Shown piece after piece: positions 27,414 through 35,991 of a DNA stretch of 37,284 bases. The notes below the pieces were generated by a model, which saw nothing but the letters and a program-made list of their open reading frames with translations, had not been told where the DNA came from and searched no databases. Within the stretch, counting starts at the first letter, position 1, and each line of letters begins with the position of its first letter. The DNA is taken from the NCBI GenBank assembly GCA_903844815.1, contig CAIMVD010000221.1:1-37284 (forward strand), given 5' to 3'. The DNA is from an uncultured Bacteroidota bacterium. Lineage in GTDB: Bacteria; Bacteroidota; Bacteroidia; Bacteroidales; VadinHA17. The translations under genes and the position numbers were made by a program.

Positions 27414-30400
27414 TCAGATGCTTTTCAGGCTTTCGATATGCCGTGGATATTGTTTTAATAAATCCAGGAGGCTGGTGATATTGAAATTATCAGAAGCAGA
27501 CACAATTTTTTCTCCATACTCAATTATAAGGCTGCAGGAATGGTCATTGCCAAGTTTTATCAGGCTGTTTCCAAATTTCTTTATTTCTCCGAGAGGCTGT
27601 CTCAACTCAAAAGATTTTCTTTTCTCAAGAAAACTTCCTTCCAGTTTCTGAATAAGACCTGCAAGATCGGTTATCCCAGTGTTTGAATGTTGTTTTCTGA
27701 ATTGTGCTTCCTTAGTTTCAGTTTCCTGAATATTATATGGAAGACACTTGATCAGTTCGGCATAGAGTTCCTGGATACTAACCGGCTTGATCAGCAAACC
27801 TGTAAAGCCTGATTTATAGATTCTTTCTCTCTGCTCCTTCATTACCGATGCAGAGTAAGCGATGACAGGAATCTGTTTTAATTTTTCATTCTCCCGAATC
27901 TTTTCCAGCAATACAAATCCGTCCATTACAGGCATTCTGATATCGGTTATAACAAGATCAGGGATCATTTTATTCATTATTTCAAGAGCGGCGATGCCGT
28001 TTTCAGCTTCAATTACTGTTAGCCGGGTTTCCCTCAGGGCGTCTACTATTAATTTCCGGTTTTCTTCAACATCATCCACAGTCAGAATCAGACCTGTATC
28101 GAAAATAATGTTCCCGGGATTTATATAAGCCTTCTCCTTTTCATTAATATAGTTTCCACGGAAGGTAACTTCATTGAAAATCACCCTGAAAGTGCTTCCT
28201 TGTCCTGGTTCGGAATCCAATTCAACCTTTCCTTTCATAAGATCAAGCAGCCTTCTTGAGATAGCAAGGCCAAGACCTGTTCCTCCCTTACTCGACTTTG
28301 ACCTGACCTGCATAAACGATTTGAAAATATCCTCCTGGAACTCCTTAGGTATGCCTATTCCGGTATCAGTTACCTCGATTACAAGTTCGATCCGTTCTTC
28401 CTTTTTACCTTCAGGAGTTGTTACCAGGTTGTGGTTTCTTGAGAAAACTTTCAGAGTTATTGATCCGCTTTCAGTAAATTTTACAGCATTGCCAACCAGG
28501 TTGAGTATTACCTGCCGAAGTCTTATTGCATCAGCATAAATATACTCAGGCGTTCCGGACAATATTTCTGTATTGAAATCCAGCCCCTTTCCCATGGTCT
28601 TAAAAGCAAATATCCTTCCGAACTCTGAAAAGAATGTACTTGTTTCGATAAAGTCAAATTCAAGGTCCAGTTTGCCGGCTTCAATTTTAGAAATATCAAG
28701 AATATCATTGATAAGTGTCAGGAGAGTCCTTCCGCTTGATTTTATTGATTTCAGGTAGTCTTTCTGCAGATCCTCCTTTACCATTGATCCAAGCAGTTCC
28801 GAGTATCCCAGAATGGCATTCATCGGTGTCCGGATCTCATGGCTCATATTAGCCAGAAAGTCGCTTTTTATCCTGTTGGCGTTTTCGGCCTCCGTCCTTG
28901 CATTCCTGATTTCCTCTTCAGCTTTTTTCCGTTCGGTAATGTCCTGATGTGTTCCTGACATCAGTAGGGCGTTCCCGTCATTATCCCAACCATGAACTTT
29001 CCCTTTGTCCAAAACCCAAATCCAATCTCCATTCTTATGCTTCATCCTCGATTCAAAGGAATAATGCGGAAGTTCTCCATTAAAATGCCTTTCGAGCAAT
29101 TGCCCCGATAATATTAAATCTTCGGGATGTGCAAACTTCAACCAGGTTTCGATGCTAACAGGTGACAATTCGTCCAGTGTATAACCAATTAATTCAGCCC
29201 ACTCCTCATTGAATATTGCTACCCCAGTTTGAATATTCCACTCCCAGGTACCCATGTGGGTTCCCTTTATGATATCTGAAAGCCTTCTCTTTTCAGAAGC
29301 CAGCTCCTGGTAGAGTTGCCTGCGTTCGGTTATATCAATTTTTATTGCAATGAAACTGGAAATATTGCCCCGGGAATCCGTTACAGGGGTGATGGTTTCT
29401 TCTTCAACATAAAGGCTTCCGTCTTTTCTCCTGTTTATAAGCTCTCCGCTCCAAACTCTTTTACTTATCAGGGTTTCCCAGAAATCCTTATAGAATCCCT
29501 TATCCTGTTTGCCTGAGCTTAACAGGTCTCCCGGCCTTTTTCCAATGGCTTCGTCGACAGAATACCCTGTAAGTTTCGAAAAACTGCTGTTTGCCCACTG
29601 TATTTTACCGCTGACATCGGTTATGATAATGGCAAGAGAAAATGATTCGAAGGCTGCGCTTTGCATTGTAAGGGCTGTCTCCATTTCTCTGCGCTCGGTG
29701 ACGTCGTGAATAATCGAAAACAGAACTTTAGTACCCTTCATTTCTATTGGCGTTGAGTGAACCTCAACAGTTCTGACCTCACCTGAAGCAAGTTTGTGAG
29801 AGAAAACAAAATAGTTTTGGTGCTGCCGGAGTGCTTGCTCCATTTCCTGTTCTATCTGATCGGCTGATAAAGAATTGATATCAGAAATTAAGAGCCGGGG
29901 ACTTGTTTTAAAATTATAACCATAGAACTTTTCTGCAGCCTTATTGGCCTCTATTATTTCACCGGTATCAGGATTCACCAGTATCATTACCGCCGAATGG
30001 TTCAAAAACATGTTATAGAAACGCTCTTCGCTTTCACGCAGGGCTTCTGTGGCTTTCTTCTCAGCTGAAATATCGCTTGCTATGCCTATGTACCCGATTA
30101 GACTGCCGTTTTCATCTTTTACGGAGGACAGGCTGAGTTTTACGGGAATTTTCTCTCCAGCCTTGCTTATATATGTCCATTCCCCGGTTTTATTTGTTAA
30201 TCCTTTCACAATAGTCTTGAACAAATGAAAATCAGGAGTAACAATCTCTTTCGTTTCCAGCGTTAGTTCACTGGCGTGCATTTCAAGTTCCGCGGGGTCG
30301 TGAAAAAGGACCGGAGTTTTCCGGCCGACTACTTCTTCAGCTTTGTAGCCGAGCATTTCTTCGGCGGCGGTATTGAATACCTCTATCAATCCTTCGGGGG

Positions 30401-33122
30401 AGGTGGTTATTATTGCCATACCTGCATGGCGCAGAATGGCCAGCTGAAGATTTGAAATTTCAAGTATCTCCCTGGTGCGATCTTCTACTCTTTTTTCGAG
30501 ATGCAGGTTGGCCTGGTTTAATTGTTCAAGTGTTTCTTTCAGCTTATTTTCCGAATTTTTACGCTCGGTAATATCACGGAGGATTCCCGTTATCTTCGTA
30601 GGGTTACCGTTGACATCATACGAAAGTGACGAAGAAACCGCTACAGAAATAATTGAACCATCCCTGTTTCGAAGAACCAATTCATGATCGGATACTCTTT
30701 TTTGCTCATATAATTTTGAAAAGAAGCTTTCCTTTTCGCCAGAATTTGCATAAATCTCGTCAAAGGGATTTCCAATCATTTCAATCCGGTTGTATTGTCC
30801 TTTGGAAAGTATTTCGATAGAAGGACTGACTTCAAGGAGAATTCCTTCCAGGGAGGCCTCATAGTAAACATCCTGAATACTTTCGAAGATGTTGCGGTAT
30901 TTTTCTTCGCTTTTATGTATTGCTAACTCAGTCTGCTTGCGTTCTGAAATGTCGAAGCAATGCCCTATATAACCTGCAAATTCACCTGAGCTGTTGAAAT
31001 TTGGAGTGCCAAGATCCACTAGCCACCTATATTCACCGCTTGAATGAAGCAAACGGTACTCCATTTCGAAGGGCACCTGTTTATCGAATGCTGATATATA
31101 GGTTTGAAGACACATGTCAAAATCATCGGGATGAACTCCTTCTGCCCACCCGTTGCCCATCTCCTGTTCAAGGGTACGGCCTGTAAATTTCAACCAGGTT
31201 TCATTAAAATAATTACAAAGTTTATCAGTCCCCGATGTCCAGATTAGGGCCAGACCCGCGTTTGCTAAATTACGGTACTGAACTTCGCTCTCCTTAAGTT
31301 TATTCTCATCCAGTTTCCTATCTGTAATATCGGTATGGGTGCCCACCATTCGGGCAGGTTTGCCATCATCGGTCCATTCAAGTACCTTGCCCCGGTCAAG
31401 AATCCATTTCCAGGATCCGTCCTTACATAATAGGCGGTGCTCGGTTTTATAATCTGTACTTTTGTGTTCAAAATGATTCTGCAATTGTAGCATCACCATT
31501 TCCGCGTCATCCGGGTGCAAGCTGTTCTTCCAGAAGCTCAATTTTCCCTCTATCTCTTCAGAATGGAAGCCCAGCATCTCTTTCAACCTGTTTGAGAAGT
31601 ATACTTCATCAGTTATTAAATTCCAGTCCCAGATACCATCATTGCTTCCTTCAATTGCAAACTGCCACCGGTCTTCAATTCTCTTAAGTTCTTTCTCTAT
31701 TTTACGTTTTTCAAGTATTTTGTGTAATTCGTTTGCTACAGCTTGTATCTGAATTACATCAAGATCAGTGTAATCAGATAGTTTATTGCCAACACCAAAA
31801 ATCAGTTTTACTCTTTCATCATGAATAACAGGAATGCTCATGATTCTCTTAACAGCAGTATGTCCTTCCGGAAGACCTTTTTTATTTGGCGAGGTCAGAT
31901 AATCATTTAATACAACCGGATTTTTCTGTCTCACACAATCAGCCCAGTTTCCTGCATTTTCAAGAGGATAATGATTGTCAAAAACCGATGTGCAGTTTTT
32001 CTTAGCTTCAGTGTTCCATGTAGTAAGAATGATTTCCTTCTGGTCGTCACTAACCTGATGAAAGAATCCTATTTTACTCTCAGTAATATTAACTGCAATA
32101 TCAAGGGCTTTATCATAGAGCTGCTTATCGGTAAGAGAGGGTGCCGTTGCAAATAATTCCAGGAGCAGGGAATTTCGTTGAGCTTCCTTAAGAAAAGCTA
32201 TTTCCACATTCTTGCTTGTGGAAATATCCCTTGCCTGGCCTTCAATGGCGTAAGGTTCATTGTTGCCGTCAAAAAGGAGAGTATTTCTTTGCTCCGTCCA
32301 GATAATTGTTCCATCCTTTTTTATCCACCTGAGTATAAGCGGTTCTCCATTACTGTACCGGGTAGAATCTTCCAGCAGCTTCCTGTCATCGGGGTGGACT
32401 AATTTGAATCCAAGATCAGGATCATTATAATGGTCTTCGGGCGTATAACCTGTAATGGCAGTCGCAGCAGGGCTTACATAATCGAATCTGACCTTCGGCT
32501 TCAGAAGCAGCCGGTAGATGATTGAGGGCGAATTTTCGGCAAGTTGTCTGAATTTCTTTTCACTTTCAGTCAGTTGCTTTTCTGAATTAACAATTTCTGA
32601 TAAATCCACCATAATCAACCGGCACCGTTTTTCATCGTTTTCACATTTTCCTGTGAGACTGATGGGAGTAGGACTCTCTCCTGCCAGGGTTAACAGGCAG
32701 GTTTCTTTTGATTTATGCTTAAATATCCTTTGGAGAAATTGTTTATAGTGGGGTCTTGTTTCGAAAGTAATAAAACTTTCAAAATCAACATTAAGCAAAG
32801 CCGACCGCTCCCTGCCCAGCATCATTGCTCCGGCAAGGTTAAGTTCAATAATTCTGCCAGCGTGGGAGAGTGTCAGATAACCCGTTGGCGCAAAATCGAA
32901 CAAGTCATTATATTTTTGAAGCGAAGTTTCTGTTTCCTCTTTTGCCTCCAGCAGCTCCTGATTCTGTAACTCAAGTTCAATCTGACGAACCTCCAGCTCG
33001 TGCAGGAGCTTCAGGATATCATGTTCTTCATTGACACGTTGCTCCTTATTCTTAATGTTATCCAGAATTTCTTCGGCCTTTTTGCGAAGTTTATTTGCTT
33101 CTGATTCGTCATTTCTTTTCAT
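27414..33122 (-). CDS. Giant multi-PAS hybrid histidine kinase
   Basis: A 1902-residue cytoplasmic sensor kinase with no membrane segment or signal peptide. Order: coiled coil (10-68), PAS (about 72-180), PAS (187-302), GAF (318-470), then seven more PAS domains (about 485-605, 610-735, 740-860, 890-1020, 1030-1145, 1150-1270, 1280-1400), HisKA with H1428 in MSHEIRTPMN, HATPase (NLVGNAVKFT, VTDTGIGIPKE, GGTGLGLAIS), receiver with D1727 (LVITDIRMPVMDG) and a helical tail of about 90 residues. Several PAS domains end in the DITERK-type junction that links them in tandem. The tail aligns in pattern with that of the kinase at 1908-4697 and likewise lacks an Hpt HxxKG motif. No response regulator or target gene is adjacent, so it is an orphan kinase. 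Some PAS domains may bind haem or flavin; sequence does not decide. Confidence 0.92.
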   Translation of the reverse strand: MKRNDESEANKLRKKAEEILDNIKNKEQRVNEEHDILKLLHELEVRQIELELQNQELLEAKEETETSLQKYNDLFDFAPTGYLTLSHAGRIIELNLAGAMMLGRERSALLNVDFESFITFETRPHYKQFLQRIFKHKSKETCLLTLAGESPTPISLTGKCENDEKRCRLIMVDLSEIVNSEKQLTESEKKFRQLAENSPSIIYRLLLKPKVRFDYVSPAATAITGYTPEDHYNDPDLGFKLVHPDDRKLLEDSTRYSNGEPLILRWIKKDGTIIWTEQRNTLLFDGNNEPYAIEGQARDISTSKNVEIAFLKEAQRNSLLLELFATAPSLTDKQLYDKALDIAVNITESKIGFFHQVSDDQKEIILTTWNTEAKKNCTSVFDNHYPLENAGNWADCVRQKNPVVLNDYLTSPNKKGLPEGHTAVKRIMSIPVIHDERVKLIFGVGNKLSDYTDLDVIQIQAVANELHKILEKRKIEKELKRIEDRWQFAIEGSNDGIWDWNLITDEVYFSNRLKEMLGFHSEEIEGKLSFWKNSLHPDDAEMVMLQLQNHFEHKSTDYKTEHRLLCKDGSWKWILDRGKVLEWTDDGKPARMVGTHTDITDRKLDENKLKESEVQYRNLANAGLALIWTSGTDKLCNYFNETWLKFTGRTLEQEMGNGWAEGVHPDDFDMCLQTYISAFDKQVPFEMEYRLLHSSGEYRWLVDLGTPNFNSSGEFAGYIGHCFDISERKQTELAIHKSEEKYRNIFESIQDVYYEASLEGILLEVSPSIEILSKGQYNRIEMIGNPFDEIYANSGEKESFFSKLYEQKRVSDHELVLRNRDGSIISVAVSSSLSYDVNGNPTKITGILRDITERKNSENKLKETLEQLNQANLHLEKRVEDRTREILEISNLQLAILRHAGMAIITTSPEGLIEVFNTAAEEMLGYKAEEVVGRKTPVLFHDPAELEMHASELTLETKEIVTPDFHLFKTIVKGLTNKTGEWTYISKAGEKIPVKLSLSSVKDENGSLIGYIGIASDISAEKKATEALRESEERFYNMFLNHSAVMILVNPDTGEIIEANKAAEKFYGYNFKTSPRLLISDINSLSADQIEQEMEQALRQHQNYFVFSHKLASGEVRTVEVHSTPIEMKGTKVLFSIIHDVTERREMETALTMQSAAFESFSLAIIITDVSGKIQWANSSFSKLTGYSVDEAIGKRPGDLLSSGKQDKGFYKDFWETLISKRVWSGELINRRKDGSLYVEEETITPVTDSRGNISSFIAIKIDITERRQLYQELASEKRRLSDIIKGTHMGTWEWNIQTGVAIFNEEWAELIGYTLDELSPVSIETWLKFAHPEDLILSGQLLERHFNGELPHYSFESRMKHKNGDWIWVLDKGKVHGWDNDGNALLMSGTHQDITERKKAEEEIRNARTEAENANRIKSDFLANMSHEIRTPMNAILGYSELLGSMVKEDLQKDYLKSIKSSGRTLLTLINDILDISKIEAGKLDLEFDFIETSTFFSEFGRIFAFKTMGKGLDFNTEILSGTPEYIYADAIRLRQVILNLVGNAVKFTESGSITLKVFSRNHNLVTTPEGKKEERIELVIEVTDTGIGIPKEFQEDIFKSFMQVRSKSSKGGTGLGLAISRRLLDLMKGKVELDSEPGQGSTFRVIFNEVTFRGNYINEKEKAYINPGNIIFDTGLILTVDDVEENRKLIVDALRETRLTVIEAENGIAALEIMNKMIPDLVITDIRMPVMDGFVLLEKIRENEKLKQIPVIAYSASVMKEQRERIYKSGFTGLLIKPVSIQELYAELIKCLPYNIQETETKEAQFRKQHSNTGITDLAGLIQKLEGSFLEKRKSFELRQPLGEIKKFGNSLIKLGNDHSCSLIIEYGEKIVSASDNFNITSLLDLLKQYPRHIESLKSI

Positions 33123-33459: not shown

Positions 33460-33528
33460 ATGAAAAGAATACTTATCACAGGATTAGATAAGGCAACCAC
33501 ATTATTAGGGAGAACTATAAGGCAATGA
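33460..33528 (+). other. Short open frame, possible gene remnant or peptide
   Basis: ATG to TGA encodes 22 residues beginning MKRILITG, the way many NAD(P)-binding Rossmann proteins begin, but the glycine motif does not follow (LDKATTLLGRTIRQ). The stop lies within the first bases of the hairpin element at 33525. It may be the stump of a gene cut by that element, a leader peptide, or chance. Confidence 0.2.
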
Positions 33529-33561
33529 CTCTCCCCTCCTTCAAAAGGAGGGGAGAGTTAT
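33525..33561. repeat. Strong perfect hairpin, 14-bp core stem with 3-nt loop
   Basis: ACTCTCCCCTCCTT (33528-33541) pairs perfectly with AAGGAGGGGAGAGT (33545-33558) around CAA, extended by three more pairs (one G-U). No T-run follows, and no gene ends nearby, so it is unlikely to be a terminator. It resembles the CCCCTCC/GGAGGGG intergenic palindromes seen repeatedly in Bacteroidota genomes. Confidence 0.8.
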
Positions 33562-33718
33562 GACTAGCCGTCACTGCTGGTGAGCTCTGCGCAGCCAAAA
33601 TCAATTTACTCCCCTGGGAGTTGCCGTAAATTTATTTATTTTCCAGCATAAAAAGATTTTTTGTGCATGATTCCCGATAGACATTTAAAATAATTTGCAT
33701 TTAAATAAATTTTATACT

Positions 33719-33743
33719 TACTTTGCATTTCAAAGTACTTTTA
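33719..33743 (+). promoter_or_regulatory. Operator-like inverted repeat, site 1 (before the membrane-protein/regulator operon)
   Basis: TACTTTG-N5-CAAAGTA is a perfect 7-bp inverted repeat (33719-33737) followed by CTTTTA; it also contains the 10-bp palindrome AAAGTACTTT. The ATG lies 5 bp beyond the site. The left arm TACTTTG resembles a -7 box with one spacer base less, and a TTG lies 20-21 bp upstream (33695-33697), so the site may overlap the promoter itself. The likely ligand is the winged-helix protein encoded in this operon. Confidence 0.6.
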
Positions 33744-33747
33744 TAAT

Positions 33748-34383
33748 ATGAAAAGCGAAAAAGAATCCATAGAAGATATAAAGGCAATCAGGAGAATAAT
33801 GGAAGATTCTTCCAGATTCCTTTCCCTGAGCGGTCTTTCAGGTGTTTTTGCCGGTATTTTAGCCATAACGGGTGCCCTGGTTGCCTGGTTTTTTATTCTC
33901 GGTACAGGCCCTTTTCGATTTGGTGATTATTTCGGTAGTATGACTTCGGGGGCTGCAATCACCCTTAAGTGGAAACTTCTTGCAGATGCGGGAGTGGTAC
34001 TTTTACTGTCCCTGTTTTTTGCCTTCTGTTTTTCAATAAAAAAGGCAGGGAAGGATGGAAAGAGCATCTGGAATTCTGTATCCAGAAGACTCCTTGCTAA
34101 CCTGTTCCTCCCCTTGTTTGCAGGAGGTGTTCTTATTATTGCATTGATGATTAACAACCAGATACATTTTATAATCCCCTGTTTCCTTATTTTTTATGGT
34201 CTCGCTCTTGTAAATGCAGGAAAGTTCACGATGGGGGAGGTGTATTATCTGGGAATTCTTGAAATGATAACAGGTCTCGTGGCCGCCTTTGTTCCGGGCT
34301 GGAGCCTGTTATTCTGGATTTTCGGCTTCGGTATACTGCACATTGGCTATGGTGTGGTAATGTACAGAAAACTCGGGGTATGA
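33748..34383 (+). CDS. Multi-pass membrane protein paired with a winged-helix regulator
   Basis: A 211-residue integral membrane protein. A charged N-terminal helix of about 25 residues (MKSEKESIEDIKAIRRIMED) precedes about six hydrophobic segments (roughly 27-52, 75-95, 115-135, 138-155, 165-183 and 185-205). No family name is recognised; similar proteins occur beside small winged-helix regulators in Bacteroidota. The gene overlaps the regulator gene by 4 bp (ATGA), so the two products are made together. It may sense a membrane state or hold the regulator at the membrane, which is inference. An inverted-repeat operator-like site lies directly before the start. Confidence 0.7.
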   Translation: MKSEKESIEDIKAIRRIMEDSSRFLSLSGLSGVFAGILAITGALVAWFFILGTGPFRFGDYFGSMTSGAAITLKWKLLADAGVVLLLSLFFAFCFSIKKAGKDGKSIWNSVSRRLLANLFLPLFAGGVLIIALMINNQIHFIIPCFLIFYGLALVNAGKFTMGEVYYLGILEMITGLVAAFVPGWSLLFWIFGFGILHIGYGVVMYRKLGV

Positions 34384-34676
34384 AAGATCTCATTTCCAAT
34401 ATAAACAAGGTTTTTGAAAGCCGTGTAAGATTGGGGATCATGTCAGTCCTGATGGTAAATGAATCTTACGACTTCAACAGCCTCAAGGAAACACTTGATG
34501 TGACCGACGGGAATCTGGCCAGCCATATTAAAGCCCTTGAGGAGAAGGGGATGATAAAGGTAAACAAACAATTTATCGGCCGTAAGCCCAATACAAGCTA
34601 CTCAGTAACTGAAACCGGTATGACCGAATTCCGACTGCATCTGAAGGCTCTTGAAAACCTTATAAGGGAGCAGTAA
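34380..34676 (+). CDS. Winged-helix transcriptional regulator (HTH_34 type)
   Basis: A 98-residue DNA-binding protein composed only of a winged helix. Segments: ESRVRLGIMSVLMVNE, FNSLKETLDVTDGNLASHIKALEEKGMIKVNKQFIGRKPNTSYSVT in two halves around the recognition helix (near residues 43-55), a wing (GRKPNTSYSVT) and a C-terminal dimerisation helix. It has no ligand domain, so activity would be set by protein contact or by level. It is co-translated with the membrane protein (4-bp overlap). Two near-identical inverted repeats, before this operon and before the next gene, are the obvious candidate binding sites, giving autoregulation plus control of the DUF4153 gene. Confidence 0.85.
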   Translation: MKDLISNINKVFESRVRLGIMSVLMVNESYDFNSLKETLDVTDGNLASHIKALEEKGMIKVNKQFIGRKPNTSYSVTETGMTEFRLHLKALENLIREQ

Positions 34677-34690
34677 TTTTTTTATATGCG

Positions 34691-34715
34691 TACTTTGTAA
34701 TGGAAAGTACTTTTA
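34691..34715 (+). promoter_or_regulatory. Operator-like inverted repeat, site 2 (before the DUF4153 gene)
   Basis: TACTTTG-N5-GAAAGTACTTTTA has the same length, spacing and right flank as the site at 33719-33743; it differs only in the 5-nt spacer and one base of the right arm. It lies 15 bp after the regulator's stop codon and 19 bp before the ATG at 34735, so the DUF4153 gene probably has its own regulated promoter. Confidence 0.6.
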
Positions 34716-34734: not shown

Positions 34735-35991
34735 ATGAAAGAAATAATTAAGGAAAACATTAATGATCCTGAGAGACTCGAACAGCTGTTTCATGATGAC
34801 AGAAAAGCCTTTGAATCAGGGTTTGAAGAGGTTTATTCAGAAATTGAAAAATCGGAATTGTCAAAATTCTGGAAAATCAGACTTGATTATAATAAACTGC
34901 AGGACAAGGTAAAAAAAATAAGTTTCCCGGATATTCTCATCTTGTTGTTTGCCTGTGTTGTAACCGGGATTCTGATTAAAATTCCATATATTTTAAATTT
35001 TCAGAATATGGAGGTGTTTTACGCGAAAAATGCAGGTATAATTGTTTTTTCCGGTTTGACACTTTTCACCCTTTTGTCAAATACAGTTACTGATCTGAAA
35101 AAACTTATCCCTGTCATTGCTGCTTTTCTGTTACTGACTTTGTATGTAAATCTGCTGCCGGCTGTAACAGACAGGGATTCGATAAATCTTGTCTATATTC
35201 ATCTTCCCCTGCTGATGTGGGTCATATTCGGCATGGTTTTTATAGGTTTCGATTTAGCGGATAAAACAAAACGTATCGGGTTTATCAGGTATAATGGCGA
35301 CCTGGCAATTCTGATGGCTGTATTGGTTATTTCGGGGGGTATTCTGACCGGAATTACCATTAACTTATTTGGTGCTATCGGACTTAACATTGAAGACTTT
35401 TACACTAAAAACATTGGAATCGTAGGTGCAGTTTCGGTGCCAATAGTTGCAACTTTCATTATCAGGAATTATCCTGCATTAACTAATAAAATCGCCCCTG
35501 TAATAGCAAGTCTTTTCAGTCCTCTGGTCCTGATTACTGCTGTAGCATTTCTTGTGGCCTTGACCATCTCGGGAAAAGACCCCTACAGCGACCGTGATTT
35601 CTTAATTTTATTTAATGCCATGCTGTTGGGTGTTATGGCCGTAATCGTCTTCTCGGTTTCAGAAACTTCAACAACAAGTAAAGAGAAATTCAAAGAGATG
35701 ATCCTGTTTGTTCTTTCGATTACAACGGTGATTATTGATTTAATTGCCTTATCTGCAATTTTTTATCGCCTGGGTACCTTTGGCATAACTCCAAACAGAT
35801 TAGCTGTTCTTGGTTCAAATATCCTTGTTTTAGGTAACCTTACTCTGATAATTATTGATTTGTACAAAGTTAATTTCAAAAAAGCACTCATCAGCGAAGT
35901 TGAACTGACAATTGCAAAATACCTTCCTGTTTACCTGGTCTGGACACTTCTTGTAATATTGGGGTTTCCTTTGATATTTGGCATGAAATAA
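34735..35991 (+). CDS. DUF4153-family multi-pass membrane protein
   Basis: A 418-residue protein with a charged soluble N-terminus (about 1-60, with RLEQLFHDDRKAFESGFEEVYSEIE) followed by about ten to twelve membrane segments. The pattern of YIHLPLLMWVIFGMVF, NGDLAILMAVLVISGGILTGI and a long conserved C-terminal half (RLGTFGITPNRLAVLGSN) is that of DUF4153 proteins, whose function is unknown. The cytoplasmic head and the many helices suggest a sensor or transport role, without direct evidence. It follows the winged-helix regulator by 58 bp with a shared operator-like site in between. The gene ends 9 bp before the convergent phosphodiesterase gene, leaving no room for a terminator. Confidence 0.82.
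   Translation: MKEIIKENINDPERLEQLFHDDRKAFESGFEEVYSEIEKSELSKFWKIRLDYNKLQDKVKKISFPDILILLFACVVTGILIKIPYILNFQNMEVFYAKNAGIIVFSGLTLFTLLSNTVTDLKKLIPVIAAFLLLTLYVNLLPAVTDRDSINLVYIHLPLLMWVIFGMVFIGFDLADKTKRIGFIRYNGDLAILMAVLVISGGILTGITINLFGAIGLNIEDFYTKNIGIVGAVSVPIVATFIIRNYPALTNKIAPVIASLFSPLVLITAVAFLVALTISGKDPYSDRDFLILFNAMLLGVMAVIVFSVSETSTTSKEKFKEMILFVLSITTVIIDLIALSAIFYRLGTFGITPNRLAVLGSNILVLGNLTLIIIDLYKVNFKKALISEVELTIAKYLPVYLVWTLLVILGFPLIFGMK

Follow-up and report, generated by a model that had tools for sequence, protein, structure and literature searches.

A candidate self-regulating switch for envelope genes in Bacteroidota: an HTH_34 winged-helix protein, a membrane protein and a shared operator

Several described systems pair a winged-helix regulator (wHTH) with a membrane partner. 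In the HAAS-PadR-like dyads a stand-alone wHTH lies beside a membrane or helical partner, the multi-spanning partners being variable, and the part of the source cited here proposes membrane-stress signaling without a kinase (PMC11237479). The LltR (PadR)-DUF1700-DUF4097 operon of Listeria, as given in an excerpt of its description, combines an autorepressing wHTH with a membrane protein of several spans and one more envelope-type gene (PMC6624303). CreD, the membrane protein of the two-component system CreBC-CreD, serves envelope integrity according to an excerpt on Stenotrophomonas (PMC4689548). The locus described here resembles the first two in these traits and meets the third through CreD. 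Among the open-licence papers listed in literature searches, none described its cassette or its operator motif.

The locus lies in a contig of 37,284 nucleotides from an uncultured Bacteroidota bacterium (the window; CAIMVD010000221.1), with the following features:

33694..33697 (+), TTTG, likely -33 element of the MEM-wHTH operon; its TTG begins 25 bp upstream of the A in ACTTTG
33719..33743 (+), operator 1, palindrome TACTTTG-N5-CAAAGTA with gene-side flank CTTTTA; its left arm is also the likely -7 box
33748..34383 (+), MEM, integral membrane protein of 211 aa, modeled as an N-terminal helix plus a bundle of membrane helices
34380..34676 (+), wHTH, HTH_34 (PF13601) winged-helix regulator of 98 aa
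34675..34683 (+), A-tract AATTTTTTT, between the wHTH stop codon and operator 2; conserved before downstream operators
34691..34715 (+), operator 2, TACTTTG-N5-GAAAGTA followed by CTTTTA
34735..35991 (+), D41, polytopic membrane protein of 418 aa whose N-terminal part is helical; likely target gene here

We consider it probable (roughly 0.6) that these features form a self-regulating envelope-gene switch, in which wHTH binds both operators, represses its own operon and controls D41, with MEM as the signal input.

Proteins and operator sites of the locus

MEM has six hydrophobic segments, as computed from its sequence. It matched no Pfam family, the sole hit being to a mechanosensitive-channel family at E 0.12. 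Its structure model was confident and helical (pLDDT 88.9), and gave no clear match against the PDB. The reading frames of MEM and wHTH overlap by ATGA (34380-34383), so that the first unit has the composition originally predicted: a six-segment membrane protein and a 98-aa winged helix, overlapping by 4 bp.

With 98.4 bits (E 2.7e-28), wHTH passed the HTH_34 gathering cut-off of 27 bits, its residues 16-95 aligning to positions 1-80 of the 80-position profile. The ArsR and HxlR families were near misses and were rejected (PF01022, 21.5 vs 22 bits; PF01638, 20 vs 20.8 bits). The Pfam matches at E 0.001 were HTH_34, HTH_5, HxlR and HTH_24, with no PadR among them. The likely recognition helix, TDGNLASH, was nearly invariant among relatives, as was the operator. 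A second, weaker HTH_34 match (28.9 bits) was found elsewhere in the genome. Among solved structures, the sole sequence match at E 0.001 was PH1061 of Pyrococcus horikoshii. Its PDB entry (1UB9), matched at E 7.9e-13, names it just “hypothetical protein”.

D41 has 11 hydrophobic segments and a structure model with a pLDDT of 85.4. The prediction had assigned it to DUF4153, which the Pfam search did not support: the match to PF13687 (11.6 bits, E 0.15) was below the curated cut-off of 27 bits. Two of 34 D41 relatives reached DUF4153 at E 0.001 (best 4.1e-4), which leaves a distant kinship possible. A profile-profile comparison of D41 with 12 presumed DUF4153 proteins gave a probability of 1.8; these proteins were picked by length and position, with L064 alone individually confirmed and L101 being part of the same protein as L064. 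For CreD (PF06123) there was no match at E up to 10. Convergent with D41 is a glycerophosphodiester phosphodiesterase gene (PF03009, 36001-37074, - strand).

On the other side of the cassette, and divergent from it, a gene at 27414-33122 (- strand) encodes a 1902-aa protein with a by-eye likeness to a multi-PAS hybrid histidine kinase. Roughly 600 bp separate the start of this gene from operator 1, and in the space between them, at 33525-33561, lies a near-perfect 17-pair hairpin (one G-U, fold of -30.5 kcal/mol); a genome search at ≤2 mismatches found its 25-bp core a single time.

Both 25-bp sites, TACTTTGCATTTCAAAGTACTTTTA at 33719-33743 and TACTTTGTAATGGAAAGTACTTTTA at 34691-34715 (both +), were present at the predicted positions, each before a transcription unit, and the same holds for most orthologous loci examined. 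The gene-side flank ACTTT is kept at both, so that AAAGTACTTT makes a second, overlapping palindrome, and there may be a third half-site. At ≤2 mismatches, the core gave five strand-matches at three places in the window, against a shuffle mean of 0.46, and none of 100 window shuffles reached five.

In the 6.37-Mb genome the exact palindrome occurs only twice, as operators 1 and 2. With one mismatch allowed, the extended pattern ACTTTG-N5-CAAAGT-N-CTTTT likewise hit only these. The core at two mismatches was at background genome-wide (63 + 68 strand-matches vs 130 + 128 for the reversed control). At one mismatch it was found at nine further places, eight of which had no CTTT flank on either strand; the ninth, on contig C95, had one on the reverse strand. 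Eight of the nine fall inside open frames of ≥200 codons, which says little, as a stop-to-stop frame of 224 codons also spans operator 1. Random occurrence across the genome and missing conservation at orthologous loci, named earlier as the outcomes that would count against a shared operator, were both checked computationally. Neither was found, the site being conserved in the orthologous upstream regions and traveling with wHTH across the phylum.

Conservation of the cassette and its operator

Among 98 related genomes, the window's own included, 31 encoded MEM and 30 had the exact extended operator. Both were present in 29, MEM alone in two, the operator alone in one and neither in 66. As to the two MEM-only genomes, a contig end truncates the cassette in G020, and in G030 the cassette has one-mismatch sites. 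The operator-only genome, of the same genus, has two sites, one of them before a beta-lactamase-family serine hydrolase (G056). Allowing one mismatch raised the operator count to 36/98, by G030 and five genomes without MEM, the latter a number close to that given by the reversed control. In G015 and G024 (loci L024 and L104) MEM is reduced to a short frame and wHTH and operator 1 are kept, suggesting that MEM may be dispensable for whatever selection retains the regulator.

In a wider search, the wHTH profile matched 150/395 Bacteroidota genomes at E 1e-20. We call close those matches at E 1e-30 or better (119 genomes), a line chosen after the list had been inspected. The operator, at one mismatch, was found in 102/119 genomes with a close wHTH (absent from 17/119) vs 27/276 others, nine of these 27 carrying a weaker wHTH match. 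Among 80 neighborhoods, drawn from 80 of the 119 genomes, 78 had MEM upstream of wHTH at a distance of no more than 1.2 kb.

A second set (the named set) comprised the best 80 of at least 574 confirmed MEM relatives from a scan of GTDB contigs; some species may be shared with the 80 neighborhoods above. Here wHTH lay within 1.5 kb of MEM in 79/80 loci, and an operator at 0-1 mismatches was found upstream of the cassette in 65 of 77 measurable loci and downstream in 60/78. Nine of the 12 upstream misses and 10 of the 18 downstream misses belonged to Dyadobacter, Runella or a Spirosomataceae bin. The nine operator-less cassettes of this type (L253, L259, L260, L261, L265, L273, L283, L290, L296) had a little-altered recognition helix, and another Dyadobacter locus, L299, had both operators.

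The genera with the cassette include, among the matches listed, Pedobacter, Chryseobacterium, Mucilaginibacter, Psychroflexus and Salinimicrobium; two species that carry it are Pedobacter alluvionis (L284) and Bacteroides finegoldii (L317). On a plasmid record of the latter species, the genes are annotated in order as hypothetical protein, transcriptional regulator and creD; an exact operator stands ahead of the first of them, and creD has none. Judged by these sequence searches, the MEM-wHTH cassette is widespread across Bacteroidota.

Promoter position and genes behind the operators

Promoter anatomy was compared in aligned loci (L075-L104 and L135-L214, window included), in which the operator had ≤2 of 12 mismatches at 102/107 upstream and 90/110 downstream positions. 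The published promoter consensus of Bacteroides and Flavobacterium is TTTG / TAnnTTTG in the excerpts cited (PMC7366714, PMC9723704); the first notes F. johnsoniae as a species without an identified -33 motif, and the second puts the -7 box at -12 to -5. At operator 1, TTTG (33694-33697) and TTACTTTG, which has one mismatch to the -7 consensus, are 20 bp apart. Across the 102 upstream operators, TTG was counted at -25/-24/-23 in 45/38/8 cases, with none in 8/102; in the named set it stood at this spacing in 55/65. The resulting layout, TTG-N19/20-T(A/T)ACTTTG, gives T(A/T)ACTTTG the spacing usual for a -7 box and is close to the published consensus (about -33, -7).

The left arm had also been noted to resemble a -7 element. 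This agrees with the first site, where a TTG about 20 bp upstream is also the rule in relatives, and fails at the second, where the -33 TTG is missing. Since most counterparts of the second operator lack it too, the argument for promoter occlusion is limited to the first operator. There, with the site lying over the likely -7 box, repression by occlusion appears likeliest.

D41 gave 37 matches in 36 relatives. Thirty loci were examined, nine adjoining a cassette and 21 away from one, some of the latter with a flank of <600 bp. Within the flank covered, an operator at 0-1 mismatches lay upstream of D41 in 8/9 cassette-adjoining loci (in the ninth, a contig end truncates the flank) vs 1/21 others. 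The cassette-free locus L042 had a two-mismatch site at -261. In L051 (1312-1500), the one cassette-free locus with a 0-1-mismatch site, an operator and a short MEM-like start directly precede D41, likely a scar after loss of the rest of the cassette. A second operator before D41 was found in the window, L044 and L088. In most cassette-adjacent loci of the window's genus D41 lacked a separate operator, which would leave its transcription to operator 1.

A crude choice of one open reading frame for each locus, some of them truncated where the locus ends, gave 105 first genes behind the cassette. CreD was the commonest named one (30/105), followed by DUF4153 (12/105) and Coq4-like proteins (5/105); D41 accounted for at least 10/105 (nine plus L148). 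At least three hydrophobic segments were found in 94/105 and none in 8/105.

Remote operators were examined in 20 regions picked by hand among the matches listed, which is no census. They preceded (i) CreD (L222), (ii) a DUF4153 gene (L225), (iii) a D41 homologue (L226), (iv) a C92 amidase plus a Coq4-like gene (L232), (v) unnamed proteins of 187-188 aa (L228, L234), and (vi) a serine hydrolase (L231). In G346 a D41 homologue (38% identity) has its own operator 1.2 Mb from the cassette. As in G056, a beta-lactamase-family serine hydrolase follows an operator, here a remote one, in G389, from another order of the class; this combination (L231, L318) was seen in two genomes of different orders.

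Proposed mechanism and comparison with known systems

We propose that wHTH, presumably as a dimer, would bind ACTTTG-N5-CAAAGT. At operator 1 it would cover the -7 box of its own promoter and so autorepress MEM and wHTH, and at operator 2 it would control the membrane effector D41. MEM, co-translated with wHTH, would most likely report the state of the inner membrane and release or capture wHTH, and under stress MEM, wHTH and D41 would rise together. The best-supported steps are those in which wHTH appears as the cognate binder and as the regulator of its own operon. To the extent that comparison of genomes can show it, operator and wHTH are paired, the site has a promoter-like position and the membrane effectors are interchangeable. 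The weakest step is MEM as the membrane-signal input, suggested by co-translation, phylum-wide linkage and the HAAS-PadR analogy and by these only.

An unlikely alternative has wHTH bound at both sites but acting as an activator of the downstream gene, with repression confined to its own operon; the downstream operators provide the main evidence for it. No TTG starts between -35 and -11 in 79/90 of them, operator 2 included, so that most have no -33 element, and an A-tract of ≥7 bp lies just upstream of 88/90, against 6/102 upstream operators, as if the promoter needed help. This tract (T7 or A6T3) ends about 9 bp before the operator and, its two forms being interchangeable, looks like a property of DNA rather than RNA. 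The same operator core at both sites, covering the likely -7 box at the first, would be unusual for an activator. The remote operators are divided: 10/22 flanks have an upstream-type TTG at -26 to -23, speaking against activation, and 12/22 have none (22 flanks from 27 rows, the five omitted being opposite-strand readings with two mismatches).

The site could also be bound by a different regulator, the local wHTH serving something else. The 27/276 operator genomes without a close wHTH and the operator-less Dyadobacter/Runella-type cassettes would fit this, but it is made improbable by the tight co-occurrence of operator and MEM in the 98 genomes and by the location of operators at the promoter from which wHTH itself would be read. 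We give even less credit to a mere promoter or RNA element, common in the phylum and unrelated to wHTH. The left arm does resemble a -7 box, and the asymmetric CTTT flank faces the gene in nearly all aligned loci. Yet conservation extends to both arms of the palindrome, the exact motif was found only twice in 6.37 Mb, few genomes without a close wHTH have the motif even at one mismatch (the same 27/276, a third of them with a weaker wHTH), and no hairpin was found before the T-tract (mean z -0.11, n 68).

For the envelope genes of a phylum abundant in guts, soil and sea, the self-regulating switch offers a concrete candidate set of regulator, operator and targets, including a likely regulator for CreD in Bacteroidota, and gives several unnamed membrane families a common regulatory context. 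As operator and recognition helix are near-invariant, a result from one species would inform many. More tentatively, and at somewhat less than even odds, the cassette may be a phylum-wide one-component envelope-stress system. MEM would then sense the inner membrane, and the HTH_34 protein would be the sole regulator, acting through one operator, near-unchanged across orders, before exchangeable, mostly unrelated membrane effectors (CreD, DUF4153, D41, serine hydrolases, C92 amidases and others) and taking the role of the Cre or Psp systems of other bacteria.

CreBC-CreD is a two-component system, whereas here a one-component wHTH with MEM adjoins creD. The Listeria LltR operon differs from MEM-wHTH in its protein families and its phylum. 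By Pfam tests, MEM and wHTH fall outside the HAAS and PadR families: MEM had no DUF1700 match (Pfam DUF1700 model only), and wHTH belongs to HTH_34, not PadR. Because function and layout resemble those of the wHTH/membrane-partner dyads, we would place the cassette among them as a variant. Unlike in the HAAS-PadR dyads, one operator sequence is kept here phylum-wide, and effectors often carry a copy themselves.
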